Source: Mycolicibacterium goodii
Lineage (GTDB): Bacteria; Actinomycetota; Actinomycetes; Mycobacteriales; Mycobacteriaceae
Reading direction: 5' to 3'
DNA: 64,000 nt
NCBI RefSeq assembly: GCF_001187505.1
Contig: NZ_CP012150.1
Span: 2,046,001 to 2,110,000 of the forward strand
The notes under the pieces were generated by a model. The model was not told where the DNA came from. It ran no database searches and saw only the letters and a program-made list of their open reading frames with translations. Positions 32,872 through 64,000 of the stretch are shown piece by piece. The position numbers and the translations under genes are program-made. Within the stretch, counting starts at the first letter, position 1. Each line of letters starts with the position of its first letter.

Positions 32872-34080
32872 CTAGGACGAGTGGGAGGACGAGTGGGAGT
32901 ACTTGTTGGTGGCCTCGTCGATTGCAGCGGCCATCTCACCCAAGTGCAACGCCCGATTGCTGTGCGCCCAGGCGAGGCTGGATTCGCGGTTGGCATTCGC
33001 ACGCTTGAAATGGGGCATCACATACTCGGCGAAGAGCTCGAGGCTCCGTTTCGTGGCATCCCACGGCGCGCAGTCCGCAATGCTGTACAAGAACGTGCCG
33101 AATCCACCGCTCTTGTCGACGAGCTCCTCGATCCGATGAATGGCGTCCTGCGGCGTCCCGGCAATGATCTTGCCCCAACTGGGCAGTCCGTTGGTGGTCC
33201 ATTCCTCGATGGCGGAGTGCGGGGTCGAGCGCCACGGCAGCTCGGTATCGCTGAAAGTCTCAAGGAATCGGGTGGTACGCAGCACACCGAACTCGAGATC
33301 CTCACGTGCTCGGCTTGTCGAGGTCGACAGATGTATCTGATTGACGACACGCCAACTCTCGCGCTCGGCGACGTGACCATGATCCGCGGCGACCTTCTCG
33401 TGCGTGGCCCAAGCCGCGGCCAGACCGTTGGCTGCGCGCTGATCGCCGGCGGCGAGAGAAAGAACTCCGAGCCCGTGCCTGCCCGCGAGGGTGACGCCCG
33501 TGGGCGAGAACACCGAACCGACCGCGACCGGGATACCGTTGGGATTGAAGGGCCGGAGCTGACTTTGGGCTTCGCGCAGATCAAACCAGTCGGTCTTGAG
33601 TGTGACCGTCTCGCCGCGCAGCAGAGGTACCAGCGCCTCGATCGCCTCGGCCATCATGTCGCGCTGTTTACGCGGCTCGATTCCCATCATGAACGCATCG
33701 GAGGGCAACTGGCCGGGCCCAATGCCCATCATGACGCGGCCCTGTGTCATGTGGTCGAGTTGGAGTATGCGGTTGGCCAAGATCAGCGGGTTGTGGTAGC
33801 AGACAGAGCTCACTCCGGTGCCGAGCCGAATCCGCTTCGTACGTTCTCCTGCTGCGGCAATCATCACCTCGGGCGACATGATGAGTTCGACGCCCGTGGA
33901 GTGGTGCTCACCGAACCACACCTCGTCGAATCCAAGCTCATCGAGCAGTTCGGCGAGTTCCAGATCGCGGCGCAGCTGAAGCGTCGGGTTCCCCTCCAAC
34001 GGATGAAAAGGAGCGATAAAGGCGCCGAACCGGATCGGTGCGCTGGGGGCCTCGTGAAAAGAGTTGTTCCGGGATGACAT
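32872..34080 (-). CDS. LLM-class flavin-dependent monooxygenase (luciferase-like)
   Basis: A 402-residue bacterial-luciferase-family oxidoreductase (TIM barrel). Signature segments are FGAFIAPFHPLEGNPTLQLRRD, FDEVWFGEHHSTG, RIRLGTGVSSVCYHNP, and MTQGRVMMGIGPGQLPSD. Such enzymes use reduced FMN (from a separate reductase) or F420 with oxygen, for example in Baeyer-Villiger type ketone oxygenation. The ATG at 34080 follows AGGAGAG; an in-frame extension upstream is not family-like. The C-terminus ends in a Ser/His repeat (SHSSSHSS). A flavin reductase gene starts 710 bp away on the other strand, making a two-component monooxygenase likely; the substrate is inferred only from context. Confidence 0.9.
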   Translation of the reverse strand: MSSRNNSFHEAPSAPIRFGAFIAPFHPLEGNPTLQLRRDLELAELLDELGFDEVWFGEHHSTGVELIMSPEVMIAAAGERTKRIRLGTGVSSVCYHNPLILANRILQLDHMTQGRVMMGIGPGQLPSDAFMMGIEPRKQRDMMAEAIEALVPLLRGETVTLKTDWFDLREAQSQLRPFNPNGIPVAVGSVFSPTGVTLAGRHGLGVLSLAAGDQRAANGLAAAWATHEKVAADHGHVAERESWRVVNQIHLSTSTSRAREDLEFGVLRTTRFLETFSDTELPWRSTPHSAIEEWTTNGLPSWGKIIAGTPQDAIHRIEELVDKSGGFGTFLYSIADCAPWDATKRSLELFAEYVMPHFKRANANRESSLAWAHSNRALHLGEMAAAIDEATNKYSHSSSHSS

Positions 34081-34384
34081 CGCTCTCCTAATTATCTCGT
34101 TCGTGTGTGAGGTGCGGGGTGGGTGAGGGCCGCGCGGAAATCGAAGGTCCCACCTCGGTCTTGAGGGCCTGCGACCACGACACGCGTCATGACCAACAGG
34201 TCCCTGGATCACGTCCGGCGCTCATGTGCCGAGACGCTCCGGCGTCAGCGGGTCCGTGCCGCAGTGATGCGGGTTGTGTCGAGAAGGGCACATCTGTACC
34301 GGCCCTACCGCGCGGGCCTACTCGACGTCGACATCGGAGGTCGCCGATGTCCGCGTTGAGGATGCCTTCACCGCGACTCCCATC

Positions 34385-34577: not shown

Positions 34578-34790
34578 CAGCGTGAAAATGCTCGCTCATC
34601 TGCCGGTCTGCGCCGACGCGTTCCCGCCGAGGTGTCGATCGGCGGCGGGCGGCAGTGCAGCCGCCTGGCGTGAACGCTCGTCTCGGCCCCGTGGGAACGA
34701 GTTCCGGGAAGGGGAAGGGCGCGTACGAAGCTTCGGATGTCGAGCAGCATCTGTCGCACTGTCCCAACGACCCGAAAGAGGATCAAACAA

Positions 34791-35297
34791 ATGGCCCCTA
34801 CGCTCGAACCAGCCTTCTTCCGTGAGGTTTTGGGACAGTATCCCACCGGGGTTGTGGTCGTGACGGCCATGTCGCCCTCGGGGGAGCCGCTCGGAATGAC
34901 GGTCGGCACATTCACGTCCGTATCGTTGGATCCGCCCCTCGTCGCGTTCATGCCGAGCAAGAGCTCGAGTTCCTGGCGTGCGCTACAGGAATCAGGGAAG
35001 CGCTACTGCATCAACGTCCTGAGCGCGGACCAACAACGGATCGGCCGTGACATCGCGGTCCGCAAGTCCGACAAGTTCACCGGCATCGAGTGGAGGCCTT
35101 CCCGTCATGGCAATCCGCTGATCGTGGGCGCGGTCGCTCACATCGACTGTGATGCCGAGACTGTCCACGACGCAGGGGACCATTACATAGTCATCGCGCG
35201 AGTCAGCGACCTCGACATCCACAACACCGAGTACCCGCTGGTGTTCTTCCGCGGAGGCTACGGGTCCTTCACTCCGCAACCCGCTGCCGGTTCATGA
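34791..35297 (+). CDS. Flavin reductase (HpaC/DIM6-NTAB type)
   Basis: A 168-residue FMN-binding split-barrel protein that reduces free flavin with NAD(P)H and hands it to a partner monooxygenase. Family features are FREVLGQYPTGVVVVTAMSP, the flavin-contact segment GMTVGTFTSVSLDPPLVAFMPSK (split for length), SGKRYCINVLSADQ, and the histidine-containing VHDAGDHYIVIARV. The ATG at 34791 has AGAGGA upstream with eight-base spacing. The luciferase-like proteins at 32872 and 62186 are the obvious oxygenase partners. Confidence 0.92.
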   Translation: MAPTLEPAFFREVLGQYPTGVVVVTAMSPSGEPLGMTVGTFTSVSLDPPLVAFMPSKSSSSWRALQESGKRYCINVLSADQQRIGRDIAVRKSDKFTGIEWRPSRHGNPLIVGAVAHIDCDAETVHDAGDHYIVIARVSDLDIHNTEYPLVFFRGGYGSFTPQPAAGS

Positions 35298-55339: not shown

Positions 55340-56089
55340 ATGGGTGACCTGCTCGACGCTCGGCGCATCGGTGTGGTTGTGCCGAGCGTGAATACAGTGA
55401 TCGAAGGCTGGTATCCCTATGTCGTTCCAGCCGGGGTTCGTGTCCACGTCAATCGCATGCTCATCGGCCAGACGGTCACGGCGGCGTCTCTGGAGGAGAT
55501 GGACAGCCATGGGATGGAGGCGGCAGCGGCCCTTGCCACCTGTCGCCCCGAGGTTGTCGTGTACGGCTGCACGGCGTCGAGTCTTGTCGGGGGGCGGGAA
55601 TACGACCTGCACCTGTTGGACGCGCTACGCCAAGCCACCGGAGTCACCTCACTCACCACGACGGAAAGCGTGCTACGGGCACTCGATCACCTAGGCGTGA
55701 CGACTCTGGCCGTCGCGTCGCCTTACACAGACGAACTCGGTCGCAAGGAGGTTGAGTTCTTCTGCGCCACAGGTCATCCGGTTCTTGGCGATGCGCATCT
55801 TGGGATCTCGGGTGGGTTCGAACTCGCGTCTCCGTCGGACGCGGACATCCTGGCAGTCGCCCGGCGGGCGTGGCGTAACGCCGGTGGCGGCGCCGATGCG
55901 CTCTTCATCGGCTGCATGAATCTCAATTCGCACCGGGTCCTCGACGCCTTGGAGGCGGAGCTGGGTGTTCCGGTCGTGAGCGCCACGCAGGCCAGCCTGT
56001 GGGCCGCGTTGCGGGCCATCGATGTACCGGACGTGCTCAAGGGTTATGGCACCCTTCTGGCCGACAGTCGTCGTGTGCGGGGAAGCTGA
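55340..56089 (+). CDS. Asp/Glu racemase superfamily protein (maleate isomerase/arylmalonate decarboxylase type)
   Basis: A 249-residue protein with two cysteine motifs, VVVYGCTASS and LFIGCMNLNS, the paired active-site cysteines of maleate cis-trans isomerase and related Asp/Glu/hydantoin racemases; the opening RIGVVVPSVNTVIEGWYP is typical of maleate isomerases. It starts two bases after the ACAD stop. In a degradation operon it may isomerise or decarboxylate a dicarboxylic intermediate. It is the last gene of the 45-56 kb operon and is convergent with the RibB-like fusion gene. Confidence 0.85.
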   Translation: MGDLLDARRIGVVVPSVNTVIEGWYPYVVPAGVRVHVNRMLIGQTVTAASLEEMDSHGMEAAAALATCRPEVVVYGCTASSLVGGREYDLHLLDALRQATGVTSLTTTESVLRALDHLGVTTLAVASPYTDELGRKEVEFFCATGHPVLGDAHLGISGGFELASPSDADILAVARRAWRNAGGGADALFIGCMNLNSHRVLDALEAELGVPVVSATQASLWAALRAIDVPDVLKGYGTLLADSRRVRGS

Positions 56090-56125: not shown

Positions 56126-57643
56126 TCACCGCGATGACTCGGTGGAGTGCGAACCGCCGGTGGTGAGCAGGCGTGTACGACGCACATCGTCTTGGAGTGC
56201 AGCGATCAGATCTTCCTTCGAGGCGAAGGTTTCCTGACCCCTGATCCAGTGGTCGAGGTGCACGGTGATCTCGGCTTCGTAGAGATTCTCGTTGAAGTCG
56301 AGAAGATGTGCCTCAAGGAGCCGGGGCCCGATGTGACCGTAGAAGGTCGATCGACGTCCGATCGACACAGCGGCGGGAATTGTTCTCCCATCGGGCAATA
56401 TGCACCGGCCTGCCCATACTCCGTCGGCCAGAGCAGAGATCCGGCTGCCGTTGTCGAGTTCGAGATTGGCCGTGGCGAAGCCCAGTTCCCGACCGCGCTG
56501 ATCGCCATGAGCCACGATGCCGCGGAAGTATCTGTCCGGAGTCACCGTCTCATGTGCCAGGCCAAAGGACGAAGCCTCGCCGGACATCACAGTGGTGTGC
56601 ACACCGTGGCGCTTCAGATCGGCGTGGAGGCGGCTCGGAACATCGAGTAGCCGCGGGGTGGTGACGCCGAGCACCCGAATGATCTGGGCGAGATCGGATA
56701 CCCGGTTCAAGGCAGCATGACGTCGCTCGGCGCGTGGTCTGGTGAGTTCGTCGATGTCATTCGTGCGCCGCTCGACGATCACGACTCCGTCGCCGTATTC
56801 GGCGATACGACTGAACTGTTTGGGCAGGACCGCATCGGCGGTGCTGGGGTGGGGGGCGAAATCGTACTCCTGGTGGACATACAGGAGTGGCTTGTCCGCG
56901 GTGTCCGGGCTGCCGATGCAATAGGCGATGTAATCCAGGCCCGACACCTTGCTGCGGAAGCCCGAGGCGCGGACATCTCCGAACCGCCCGCATCGGGTGT
57001 CCACGAAGGTGGTCCGCAGATGCAGTTCGTTCATCCGCCGATACAGTGCGACATCGTCGGCGGAGACCCAGTTCAACTGGTGCTCGGCCGCAAAGGCCAC
57101 ACATTCAGTCGCATTACATATCCGGGTCGGGTCATCGGGAGAGACCAGTGCGGCGAAGGCACCGACATGGTGCAGGCCGGCGGCCCGGGTGAGGTCGCTG
57201 ATCACCTCGGCGGGGCCCTGGTGTGCCAGCACCCCGAAGTCATGTGCACGGCGTGGCACGACGTGACCCGGGCGGGTGAGCTGCATCGCGGTGGTCGAGG
57301 GCGTCGCCAACTGCTGGAGGGTGCGGGCCCGGTCGGACGCGGAGATGCCGGTGCCTATGCCATCCGATGCGTCCACAGCGACTGTGTAGTAGCCGCCTGC
57401 GGGGCTGGCGATGGTGCCGCCCATCGGCGAAAGGTCAAGTCGTTCACATTCTTTGCGTGTCACTGCCGCGCAGACGAAGCCGGAGCTGTGGCGGATGAGA
57501 AACGCCATGTTGGCGGGGGAGGCCTTCTCTGCGGCAAGGAGCAGGTATCCATCGGGGTCCCCCACTGCGCTGCCGATGAGGACGATGGGCCGTCCGGCGG
57601 CGAGATCTGACAGGGCCTGCTCTACGCGGGTCGGGCTTTCCAT
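56126..57643 (-). CDS. Fusion: degenerate RibB-like + RibA-like domains + riboflavin kinase
   Basis: A 505-residue protein with three flavin-biosynthesis folds in order. Residues 1-205 resemble DHBP synthase (RibB): RHSSGFVCAAVT (51-62), DGIGTGISASDRARTL (94-109) and RPGHVVPRRA (124-133), but the acidic metal loop (DDEDRENEGD in E. coli) is replaced by SAVGDPDGY and the GGHTEA histidine by QGPAEV. Residues 210-360 resemble GTP cyclohydrolase II (RibA) but lack all three zinc cysteines and the RGHEGRGIG loop. Residues 370-495 match riboflavin kinase: GRELGFATANL (384-394, T and N kept) and LLEAHLLDF with the catalytic Glu444. No FAD-synthetase domain is present. It probably makes FMN, or senses flavin; the first two domains look catalytically dead for their classical reactions. 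Confidence 0.82.
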   Translation of the reverse strand: MESPTRVEQALSDLAAGRPIVLIGSAVGDPDGYLLLAAEKASPANMAFLIRHSSGFVCAAVTRKECERLDLSPMGGTIASPAGGYYTVAVDASDGIGTGISASDRARTLQQLATPSTTAMQLTRPGHVVPRRAHDFGVLAHQGPAEVISDLTRAAGLHHVGAFAALVSPDDPTRICNATECVAFAAEHQLNWVSADDVALYRRMNELHLRTTFVDTRCGRFGDVRASGFRSKVSGLDYIAYCIGSPDTADKPLLYVHQEYDFAPHPSTADAVLPKQFSRIAEYGDGVVIVERRTNDIDELTRPRAERRHAALNRVSDLAQIIRVLGVTTPRLLDVPSRLHADLKRHGVHTTVMSGEASSFGLAHETVTPDRYFRGIVAHGDQRGRELGFATANLELDNGSRISALADGVWAGRCILPDGRTIPAAVSIGRRSTFYGHIGPRLLEAHLLDFNENLYEAEITVHLDHWIRGQETFASKEDLIAALQDDVRRTRLLTTGGSHSTESSR

Positions 57644-60845: not shown

Positions 60846-62189
60846 ATGGTTGAACTCGGTCAGCAATCACAACCGAACCACACGGGCGCTGGGCCGTTGC
60901 GGGGGATTCGGGTTCTCGATCTGACCCATGTGCTCGCGGGCCCGCTCACCACCATGCTGCTGGGTGATCTGGGTGCCGAGGTCATCAAGGTGGAACGCCC
61001 CGGTGTCGGTGATGAGACCCGCGGTATTCCGCCCCGCCAGGCCGGCGAGAGTCACTACTATCTCAGCGTCAACCGAAACAAGAAGAGCATCGCCGTCGAC
61101 CTCAAGACCAAGAAGGGCCGGGATCTGGTCCTGCAGTTGATCGACAGTTCCGATGTGGTGGTCGAGAACTTTCGCCCAGGCGTCGCGGCCAAACTCGGCC
61201 TCGATGCCGACACGGTGAAACGACGCAACCCCGCAATCGTCTACTGCTCGATATCCGCATTCGGCCAGCGCGGGCCGTGGTCCACACGGTCCGCGTTCGA
61301 CATCGCGGTGCAGGCGATGAGTGGGGCGATGACGGTCTCGGGGGAGCCGGATTCACCCCCGGTGCGGGCGGCGATCCCGTTGGCAGATCTGGCTGCCGGT
61401 CTCTTCGCCGCGATCGGAGTCCTGGCGGCACTCGTGGAAGTCCGCAGCACGCGGGCCGGAAAGACCATCGACATCGCGATGCTCGATTCCACCGTCGGAC
61501 TGCTGGGTTATCTCGCGTCGTACTACCTCATGACGGGAGAAAGCCCCCAGCGCGTCGGCGGGGGGCATGTCAGCATCGTGCCGTACGGGGTCTACAAGGC
61601 TGCCGACGGGTACCTCGTCATCGCCACGCTGACCGAGTCCTTCTGGCCGAAGTTGTGCGGCGCCCTGGACCGGGCAGACCTGGCGGCCGATCCTGAACTC
61701 GCCACCAACGCACAACGATTGGGACGGCGCGCCGATGTCGACAGGGAGATCACCTCGACACTACGGACGCGAACGGTCGCCGAGTGGTGTCAGCGGCTGA
61801 CGGCGAACGATGTGCCGCATGCTCCTGTGCTCACGATCGCGCAGGCACTTGAGCACGAGCAAGTGGCCGACCGCGGCCTCATCCGCACCGTCGAGCATCC
61901 CGCTCTGGGATCGACACGCATCATGGGGCCGACGATCAGATTCGACGACGGTCCGCCTTTGCCGGCCGCACCGGCACCGGTCTTGGCGGCCGACACCGCA
62001 ACGGTGCTCGCCTCGGTCCTTGGATTGTCCGATCGCGAGATCACCGAACTCATCACCCAAGGCGTCATCGAAATTGCGATGCCTGCCGACGATTTCTCTC
62101 ACTCGCAGGGTGACACAGAAATCAGTGGAGATAGAGCGAACAGAAACGACAACCGTATGTCTGTGATGCAAGGGATGGAGAAAAAATGA
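60846..62189 (+). CDS. CaiB/BaiF family (class III) CoA-transferase (second)
   Basis: A 447-residue family III CoA-transferase: GIRVLDLTHVLAGPLTTMLLGDLGAEVIKVE (split), NRNKKSIAVDLKTKKGRD, PAIVYCSISAFG, and the region AAIPLADLAAGLFAAIGVL with the expected catalytic Asp. A long C-terminal tail of about 40 residues is polar. It starts six bases after the ligase stop and its stop overlaps the LLM start. Its role parallels the CoA-transferase at 49961. Confidence 0.9.
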   Translation: MVELGQQSQPNHTGAGPLRGIRVLDLTHVLAGPLTTMLLGDLGAEVIKVERPGVGDETRGIPPRQAGESHYYLSVNRNKKSIAVDLKTKKGRDLVLQLIDSSDVVVENFRPGVAAKLGLDADTVKRRNPAIVYCSISAFGQRGPWSTRSAFDIAVQAMSGAMTVSGEPDSPPVRAAIPLADLAAGLFAAIGVLAALVEVRSTRAGKTIDIAMLDSTVGLLGYLASYYLMTGESPQRVGGGHVSIVPYGVYKAADGYLVIATLTESFWPKLCGALDRADLAADPELATNAQRLGRRADVDREITSTLRTRTVAEWCQRLTANDVPHAPVLTIAQALEHEQVADRGLIRTVEHPALGSTRIMGPTIRFDDGPPLPAAPAPVLAADTATVLASVLGLSDREITELITQGVIEIAMPADDFSHSQGDTEISGDRANRNDNRMSVMQGMEKK

Positions 62190-63334
62190 AATGCAGTGTG
62201 GGGTTACATCCGACCAACTCCGACGACTGGGAGCGAGTTCTGGCCGACGATTACACCCGCCCACCGTCTCCGCCCGATCACGAGATCTGGCACCGGGCAT
62301 TGCGCATCGTCGACCTCGCTGACGAACTGGGTTTCGACAACCTCTGGACGACGGAGCATCACGTCACGCCGTACGGCATGATCCCGAATCCCCTGACATT
62401 CCTGTCCTTTGTCGCCGGGAGGACCCAGAACCTCGGTGTCGGCACTTCTGTGATGGTGCTGCCGTGGTGGCAGCAGCCTCTGCGGGCCGCTGAGGAGATC
62501 GCGATGGTCGACACCTTCCTCCGTGGTCGCGAGCTCACGATCGGGGTCGGCCGCGGAATCGCCAAGAGCGAGTACGATGCTCTCGGCGTCGACCGCTCCC
62601 AGGGACGCGAGAGGTTCCGCGAGGCACTCGACATCATCCGCCTTGCCCTTCGGGAGGAGAGCTTCTCCTACGACGGCGAGCACTATCAGGTCTCGCAGAC
62701 TTCGATGCGGCCCCGTCCGGTGCACGCGGACCGCATCATCGACAATATGGTCGGCGCGTTCACCAGCGGTGATTCTCTGCAGATGATGGCGGATGCCGGC
62801 CTGGGCATGATGTTCACGGGTGGAAAGCCGCTGGAGGCCTGCGCCGAGGACGTCGCGCTGTTCAACGCCGCGCGGCGGCAGCGAGGTCTGGAACCGACAA
62901 AACCCATCGTCGTCAACTTCACGCTGTGTACGGATTCGAAGACTAACGCCGATATCGGCCGGAAGTCGTTCTCACGGTTGTCTGCTGAGATCGGCTGGCA
63001 CTACAAGATGGGTGACGCGGCTCAGTTCGAAGGAGTCAAGGGCTACGAATCCTATCTCCAGCAGGCCAAAGAAGCTGCAGGTAAATCGATCACAGCTTTC
63101 GGGCGAGTCGATGACCTGGTGCTCGCGGGCAATCCGGACGAAATCATCGCCCGCTTGCAGCCGCTCCTGACGTCGTTGGCGGCCAAGGAGGTTCAGTTCC
63201 AGTTCCTTTTCGCCGACATCCCACTGGACCTCGCGGAGTCCAGCATCAAGCTCTTCGCCAAGGAGGTCATGCCGATGGTCAAGGAACTCGAGGTGCCCCT
63301 CAGCGAGGAGCTTTCCGGAATGTCCGTCGTCTGA
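62186..63334 (+). CDS. LLM-class flavin-dependent oxidoreductase (second)
   Basis: A 382-residue luciferase-family TIM barrel: IVDLADELGFDNLWTTEHHVTPYGM, GVGTSVMVLPWWQQPLRAAEE, and GRELTIGVGRGIAKSEYDALG. It is only distantly similar to the LLM protein at 32872 and may act on a different intermediate. The ATG overlaps the CoA-transferase stop, so it is part of the same operon; reduced flavin could come from the reductase at 34791. FMN versus F420 dependence cannot be settled from sequence. Confidence 0.9.
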   Translation: MKCSVGLHPTNSDDWERVLADDYTRPPSPPDHEIWHRALRIVDLADELGFDNLWTTEHHVTPYGMIPNPLTFLSFVAGRTQNLGVGTSVMVLPWWQQPLRAAEEIAMVDTFLRGRELTIGVGRGIAKSEYDALGVDRSQGRERFREALDIIRLALREESFSYDGEHYQVSQTSMRPRPVHADRIIDNMVGAFTSGDSLQMMADAGLGMMFTGGKPLEACAEDVALFNAARRQRGLEPTKPIVVNFTLCTDSKTNADIGRKSFSRLSAEIGWHYKMGDAAQFEGVKGYESYLQQAKEAAGKSITAFGRVDDLVLAGNPDEIIARLQPLLTSLAAKEVQFQFLFADIPLDLAESSIKLFAKEVMPMVKELEVPLSEELSGMSVV

Positions 63335-63448: not shown

Positions 63449-64000
63449 ATGCCACATCGAGTCACCGCTACCCAGCAGCAGTACACCACATTGTTGAGTC
63501 CGTTCCAGCTCGGCTCCATCGAACTCAAGAACCGAGTTGTGATGTTGCCCATGGGTGCACGCCAGAGCCGTGACGGCCTCGCGTCCGACGCCGATGTCGC
63601 GTGGCTCGAGGAAAGGGCGAGGGGTGGCGTCGGGCTGATCATCACCGGCGGCCAGTTGGCCAGCCCCACCGCCGTTGTTCCCAGCAATGCCGACGGTGCC
63701 CCCGGTAACGTGTACCGGCTCATGGAAGCCTTCCGGCCCGAGGGCGTCGACGCCGCGCGCCGACTGGTCACCGCCGTCCATTCACACGGGACGCGAATCA
63801 TCGGACAACTCGTGCACCAGGGGCGTGACAACTCCTTCCAGCCCGGGATCTCCTCTGCCGCACCGATCATGGCGCCGTCGCCGATCCGGACCCCTGGCGC
63901 CTCCGACACGCCACACGAACTCAGCTGCCACGAGATCGAGCAACTTGTCACGGACTTCGGAATCTCCGCGCGCAACCTGCAGGAGGCAGGTTACGACGGG
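63449..64000 (+). CDS. Old Yellow Enzyme family oxidoreductase, N-terminal part (runs off window)
   Basis: The first 184 codons of an NADH:flavin oxidoreductase/OYE-type TIM barrel: LLSPFQLGSIELKNRVVMLPMG, ASDADVAWLEERARGGVGLIITGG and IIGQLVHQGRDN, where the His/Gln-containing strand contacts FMN and substrate. This group includes enone reductases and 2,4-dienoyl-CoA reductase-like enzymes, often multi-domain. GGAGG (63438-63442) supports the ATG. In a terpenoid-type pathway it could reduce an unsaturated ketone. The C-terminus is outside the window. Confidence 0.9.
   Translation, partial: MPHRVTATQQQYTTLLSPFQLGSIELKNRVVMLPMGARQSRDGLASDADVAWLEERARGGVGLIITGGQLASPTAVVPSNADGAPGNVYRLMEAFRPEGVDAARRLVTAVHSHGTRIIGQLVHQGRDNSFQPGISSAAPIMAPSPIRTPGASDTPHELSCHEIEQLVTDFGISARNLQEAGYDG

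Follow-up and report, generated by a model that had tools for sequence, protein, structure and literature searches.

A riboflavin kinase fused to a disarmed RibBA-like module in Mycolicibacterium goodii, a probable accessory FMN supply for FMNH2-dependent monooxygenases

We analyzed a 64,000-nucleotide stretch of the Mycolicibacterium goodii genome (the window) and found a gene encoding a riboflavin kinase (RFK) that is fused to two RibBA-derived domains whose catalytic residues have been replaced or deleted. From sequence and gene context we consider it probable that the protein is an accessory riboflavin kinase feeding the FMNH2-dependent monooxygenases of the same island, with the RibBA-derived module kept as a likely scaffold. 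The kinase looks intact and relatives of the fusion lie inside camphor-type, FMN-consuming clusters, which suggests a local cofactor supply unit with a probably repurposed front half. The features on which the analysis rests are collected in Table 1.

Table 1. Features of the window, with positions counted from its first letter
Feature	Position	Strand	Remarks
Pseudo-RibB / pseudo-RibA (X) / riboflavin kinase fusion gene	56126..57643	-	505 aa
RibB-like domain, residues 1-205	57029..57643	-	Pfam PF00926 and alignment
Shrunken RibA-like X domain, residues 206-350	56594..57028	-	weak PF00925 and hhalign 97% probability
Variable linker, residues 351-372	56528..56593	-	no invariant columns among 6 fusions
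Riboflavin kinase (RFK) domain, residues 373-492	56168..56527	-	PF01687 and PDB RFK matches
Luciferase-like monooxygenase A	32872..34212	-	PF00296 2.4e-44; best PDB match 81 bits; same island
Flavin reductase	34737..35297	+	PF01613 5.4e-44
Luciferase-like monooxygenase B	62186..63334	+	PF00296 1.4e-51; best PDB match 109 bits; 4.5 kb from fusion
Old-yellow-enzyme / 2-enoate-reductase type gene, start	63449..64000	+	runs past window; L018:1449-3458 Oxidored_FMN 2.6e-61

The fusion gene is an uninterrupted open reading frame that starts with ATG, contains no internal stops, has AGAAGGA just upstream of the ATG and shows the codon-position GC of its neighbors (0.68/0.50/0.75). Pfam placed DHBP_synthase at residues 8-199 (3e-49), Flavokinase at 373-491 (2.3e-29) and GTP_cyclohydro2 at 220-348, the last with 17.7 bits and thus under the curated cut-off of 23.3. 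A profile of the X domain from 14 members of the family aligned to that of six canonical RibA domains with an hhalign probability of 97% (E 4.6e-11), compared to <=0.5% for four control pairings, and the first domain matched the RibB profile by both PF00926 (3e-49) and hhalign (100%). The RibB-X portion is 40% identical to the RibBA of its own genome across residues 6-260, and the top PDB match of the protein is RibBA 4i14. The reading frame, the Pfam matches and the X-RibA comparison bear out the initial annotation, which had described a RibB/RibA/riboflavin-kinase triple fusion lacking a FAD-synthetase part; Pfam found no FMN adenylyltransferase domain in the protein, and RibF NCBIfam models matched only inside residues 365-495.

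To characterize the first two domains, we aligned 15 family members, with or without RFK, to six canonical RibBA proteins. The acidic loop DDEDRENEGDL of canonical RibB reads GSAVGDPDGYL in the window protein, the metal His is replaced by Pro144 and another active-site Glu by Ala165; TGISASDR and PGHVVP are kept, and the equivalents of H153, T154 and E174 are lost. In all 15 members T154 and E174 are replaced by Ala, E40 by Asp and D42 by Tyr or His, and H153 is absent; the E38 column holds Asp in nine members and other residues in six. H136 and the T, D and R of TGISA-x-DR are retained in 15/15. Glu38, His153, Thr154 and Glu174, which we take to be the active-site residues of DHBP synthase in E. 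coli RibB numbering, are therefore not available as a set in any of them. The X domains likewise lack what GTP cyclohydrolase II requires, as none of the 14 members having an X domain carries Cys at the three zinc-aligned columns and the RGHEGRGIG loop is not kept past its first Arg. The prior description of both domains as dead-looking, with the acidic loop, metal histidine, zinc cysteines and RGHEGRGIG all gone, thus holds except for that one Arg, which still aligns to Arg, and extends to the whole family.

We estimated dN/dS by the Nei-Gojobori method and, where computable, obtained 0.10-0.29 for RibB and 0.11-0.28 for X; the RibB comparison of the window with L051 was saturated and not computable, several other synonymous distances were near saturation, and the L056/L058 numbers were small. 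The readable frame of the frameshifted L052 served in one pair. Judged by these ratios, the RibB and X domains are under purifying selection, as is to be expected of a putative retooled pseudoenzyme and not of a decaying gene. Since the residue changes are common to all 15 members, the members form one branch and dN/dS is low, the module appears to have been disarmed in its old chemistry yet maintained.

The kinase domain presents the opposite picture. The GFxTAN motif and the catalytic Glu, whose roles in riboflavin kinase we take as established, are present in 7/7 intact fusions within the conserved motifs GDQRGRxLGFxTAN and LLEAHLLDF, and the window protein has TAN at residues 391-393 and the Glu at 444, as had been noted from the sequence. 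RFK is also the best conserved part of the fusion proteins, with 66-75% identity between the window copy and the five other distinct fusions, compared to 51-68% for RibB and 30-48% for X. Solved structures matching the domain are mostly riboflavin kinases or RibF proteins, and it is 39% identical to the RibF of its own genome and 47% to that of an uncultured actinobacterium. Besides the fusion, the genome encodes a complete RibF and two RibBA proteins, one canonical and a second that looks intact; given the canonical RibBA and the complete RibF, the fusion copy is surplus to housekeeping. The second RibBA paralogue (L003, C1:3920390-3921271) has a flavin reductase 1.9 kb away and a luciferase-like gene at ~5.8 kb, as if flavin-pathway duplicates get recruited to such clusters.

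We searched 401 genomes of the same family at a cut-off of 1e-54 and recovered matches in 20. Eight of these, the window's included, hold an RFK-fused gene, which is intact in seven and present only as a frameshifted copy in G1261; G984 and G1096 have two-domain genes, and ten genomes, whose loci were not read, gave canonical-RibBA-like scores (187-196 bits). The search for the same domain order and its neighbors, proposed in the initial annotation, thus yielded seven more genomes with RFK-fused genes, and the uniqueness implied there proved wrong, the same order occurring in three other genera. By genus, g10 matched in 5/28 genomes, all five with an RFK-fused gene, g2 in 4/150 with none fused, g3 in 1/37, and g4 in 1/59 with a canonical-type score from an unread locus. 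Under strict cut-offs in overlapping samples, the window gene stood alone in its own genus (1/198), order (1/397) and phylum (1/396), and a contig search returned three loci, all relatives of the RFK part only. A tblastn search of plasmids revealed a kinase-less two-domain relative on a Rhodococcus plasmid (48%). The fusion arrangement was not found in open-licence PMC papers.

The intact fusions are those of the window, L051, L054, L055, L056, L058 (a near-copy of L056) and L060, from four genera (g1, g10, g3 and g328). The two frameshifted ones, L052 and L053:14962-16627, were excluded from the residue table and the tree; L012, whose RibB-like ORF is degenerate and has no clear start, was set aside together with L016, and L026, with a RibB part only, stayed outside the X comparison. 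A TGA flagged inside the G1255 and G1271 matches was dismissed, as each match begins at the gene's own stop codon and the ORF is uninterrupted. In the tree, all 15 members group on a single branch (99/98 support) that excludes canonical RibBA and also three further RibB(A) rows of partly degenerate sequence, which sit in two places, and the distribution of fused and non-fused states requires at least four changes. Eight kinase-less relatives were compared, and no kinase-like ORF or DNA was found in the stretches fetched around five of their loci (L008 and L023-L026). One of them, L025, is sister to the fused L060 (100/100) and has the same gene order without RFK; it ends in a stretch containing GLVQHGD, the start of the kinase, so at least that RFK loss was secondary. 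One genome holds three family copies in ~23 kb, namely L053:4725-5966 (no RFK), L053:14962-16627 (frameshifted) and L054:6180-7655 (intact). Partly degenerate RibBA-like genes near luciferase-like genes were also seen on a Mycobacterium plasmid (L009:7947-9056) and a Rhodococcus plasmid (L015:7950-9020), and both branch apart from the fusion family.

In the window, the fusion gene is a lone minus-strand gene flanked by plus-strand ones. The initial annotation had placed it in a cluster with a pair of luciferase-like monooxygenases, an OYE and a flavin reductase; all of these genes are present, but the nearest flavin reductase is 20.9 kb away (chance of one that near, 0.057). That flavin reductase shares 47-55% identity with the flavin reductases from six of the relatives' loci, one match being partial, and the two luciferase-like enzymes are 22-27% identical to the diketocamphane type. 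The genome has 71 luciferase-like genes in 7.1 Mb, and we estimate a ~9% chance of finding one within 4.5 kb; fusion-bearing genomes hold 36-83 such genes above cut-off, by per-genome counts, to which these statistics are limited. Luciferase-like genes are so common in these genomes that mere nearness does not count.

The surrounding island spans ~43-46 kb, beginning at about 24-28 kb in the window and reaching ~6.9 kb past the window's end (L018:1-8900). Third-codon GC is mostly ~0.75 within it, compared to mostly 0.84-0.93 on its left side and 0.87-0.94 on its right, with the left border unclear because genes at 24.3-28.2 kb show 0.77-0.79. It contains genes for acyl-CoA dehydrogenases, acyl-CoA ligases, family III CoA-transferases, MaoC, SnoaL, thiolase-like and SDR proteins, and we infer from this content and the lower third-codon GC that it is an acquired catabolic island. 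An arylmalonate decarboxylase / EutA-like gene (55340-56089) adjoins the fusion and has no match in the other loci compared.

The neighborhoods of the relatives are more telling. A diketocamphane-type monooxygenase 88-100% identical to the L060 enzyme lies within ~21 kb of the fusion in 6/8 genomes (G1285, G1283, G1255, G1271, G1117 and, at 21.3 kb, G1261). The enzymes of L060, L055 and L054 match 3,6-diketocamphane 1,6-monooxygenase (PDB 4uwm) with 632-649 bits, that of L060 with 632. A second diketocamphane-monooxygenase-like type occurs in G1285, G1283, G1255 and G1271 (323 bits for the L054 copy), and P450cam-like genes were found in three of the eight genomes, G1285 (488 bits to P450cam) and G1261 and G1289 (~62% to the G1285 gene). 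Neither the full 29-kb contig of G1289, the closest relative, nor the window together with the next 20 kb yielded a diketocamphane-type gene; the pairing of P450cam with diketocamphane monooxygenase that marks a camphor cluster is thus seen wholly or partly in relatives and not in the window. A flavin reductase lies <=21 kb from the RFK-fused gene in 7/8 genomes; in G1271, where the fusion gene is 4 kb from the contig end, the contig holds none. The combined p for this proximity was 6e-5 (all eight) or 3e-4 (one genome per genus), values that serve as a guide only because they assume random placement and the loci are related.

The strongest functional link is the gene order and spacing of L060, where monooxygenase, SDR, fusion and acyl-CoA ligase form a single-strand run with gaps of 6 and 21 bp and a 1-bp overlap of the last two ORFs; the ORF starts were called mechanically, and a later ATG of the fusion would make the 21-bp gap 84 bp. 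L054 has the single-strand order ferredoxin reductase, P450cam-like (488 bits), ADH, fusion and diketocamphane-monooxygenase-like (323 bits).

We propose that the fusion kinase would convert riboflavin and ATP into FMN, which would in turn feed two-component FMNH2-dependent monooxygenases, i.e. the luciferase-like enzymes and flavin reductase of the same catabolic island. The kinase would be carried by an old RibBA duplicate whose domain 1 has presumably lost DHBP-synthase chemistry and whose domain 2 has presumably lost GTP-cyclohydrolase chemistry, and the module, preserved by selection, would probably be a scaffold on which flavin or client proteins are bound and FMN handover is aided. A dedicated FMN supply was among the initial suggestions, and it gains support from the RFK motifs in 7/7 intact fusions, the strongest conservation being that of RFK, and the monooxygenase and flavin-reductase neighbors of the relatives. 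The individual steps have parallels, as diketocamphane monooxygenases are described as taking preformed FMNH2 as cosubstrate from a separate reductase (PMC8706424, in part), human RFK as able to pass FMN to an apo-client (PMC10086132, in part), and B. subtilis RibR as a monofunctional flavokinase within a sulfur-compound transcription unit (PMC7693651, in part). With RibR as precedent, it makes sense that a local flavin reductase and a local FMN-forming kinase would constitute a supply unit. The window copy would serve luciferase-like enzymes other than the diketocamphane type; the argument is weakest where it ties the fusion to the oxygenases of the window itself, for which family membership weighs more than the neighboring genes. 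Such monooxygenases can also live on housekeeping FMN.

FMN synthesis is not the whole function of the family, since the same module is found in kinase-less relatives, one of which, L025, preserves the L060 gene order. The persistence of the module without RFK, and under selection, points to a role of its own, most plausibly flavin or partner binding. More tentatively, the RibBX module may be a new flavin-handling protein, one that takes up riboflavin or FMN, tethers the kinase to FMNH2-dependent monooxygenases and also functions by itself in proteins without RFK; camphor-type and related operons would then contain an assembly line for the cofactor. We regard this as rather doubtful at present.

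Of the alternatives to an accessory FMN supply, the most serious makes the front module the family's central element, a RibB fold retooled for a new activity or ligand of its own, with RFK either gained or lost in the course of evolution. The kinase-less relatives, all eight with the same switched residues, speak for it, as do RibB dN/dS values of 0.10-0.19 in the four comparisons that include one of them, the vestigial kinase start of L025 behind the L060 gene order, and the retained H136, TGISA and D/R, which suggest a kept pocket. However, the metal and phosphate ligands are gone and RFK, in the proteins that have it, is better conserved than the rest, and we consider this explanation possible and the less likely one. 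It is doubtful to a much greater degree that the fusion makes a modified flavin, as the initial annotation had also suggested, or joins in riboflavin breakdown. A kinase, a luciferase-like enzyme and a flavin reductase also occur together in riboflavin catabolic clusters, but the RibB metal His is absent in 15/15 members and the relatives sit in camphor-type clusters. Moreover, no RibD, RibE or RibH domain was found among the island genes scanned (one SnoaL-type protein gave a sub-cut-off Lumazine_bd_2 match), and no chain named riboflavin lyase was among the PDB matches (1e-10) of the two luciferase-like enzymes. We found no support for a modified flavin and judge either role very improbable. 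The two frameshifted relatives (L052 and L053:14962-16627) could hint at a fusion or assembly artefact or a decaying pseudogene, an explanation contradicted by seven intact fusions in four genera and by dN/dS of 0.10-0.29 in RibB and X where computable, and hence hardly credible.

We also evaluated whether the fusion might act as a flavin sensor or regulator, tuning the flavin supply through binding of flavin or RNA. In favor of such a role, sensing is a common second use of catalytic folds. RibR of Bacillus subtilis offers a precedent and resembles the fusion as an extra monofunctional flavokinase in a catabolic transcription unit (PMC7693651, in part). RibR acts on FMN riboswitches, whereas none scored above threshold in the window, which gave no regulatory RNA of any kind, or in nine related loci, canonical RibBA and RibF loci included; those nine yielded a single regulatory RNA, an Actino-pnp element at the RibF locus. 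In the fusion protein, no domain for DNA or RNA binding exceeded the Pfam cut-off (CDT1_C, at 12.6 bits, fell below it), and to our knowledge RibR, unlike the fusion, has no RibBA-like part. We therefore regard a sensor as unlikely.

Among known proteins, the closest in layout is RibBX of Shewanella, Aeromonas and Bradyrhizobium, in which a RibB-type domain precedes a RibA-like domain without zinc and ring-opening residues, and in Shewanella the degenerate X domain is reported to regulate its partner domain (PMC10012899, in part). The fusion family shares the degenerate X part but not the functional RibB residues; its RibB is disarmed too, and a riboflavin kinase is attached. Canonical RibBA has the same order of domains, whereas the catalytic and metal residues of both are replaced or deleted in the fusion, and RibF (riboflavin kinase / FAD synthetase) shares the RFK domain, which in the fusion comes without a FAD-synthetase domain and is joined to the RibBX-like module. 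The camphor clusters of Pseudomonas putida are comparable to those of several relatives, which hold strong P450cam and 3,6-DKCMO matches, and differ from the window's island, which has neither P450cam nor diketocamphane monooxygenase. The FMNH2 sources of P. putida named in the relevant part of PMC8706424 are chromosomal Fred, Frp1 and Frp2 and plasmid PdR, with no RFK fusion among them.

FMNH2-dependent two-component monooxygenases need unbound reduced flavin, and the origin of the FMN is usually taken for granted. The fusion is a metabolic enzyme disarmed in two domains that selection has nonetheless preserved, a case open to experiment, and it might assist such oxygenases when they are run in engineered cells. 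If our proposal is true, cofactor supply would be packaged with the pathway in these clusters, in the form of an FMN-making enzyme joined to a conserved pseudo-RibBA.
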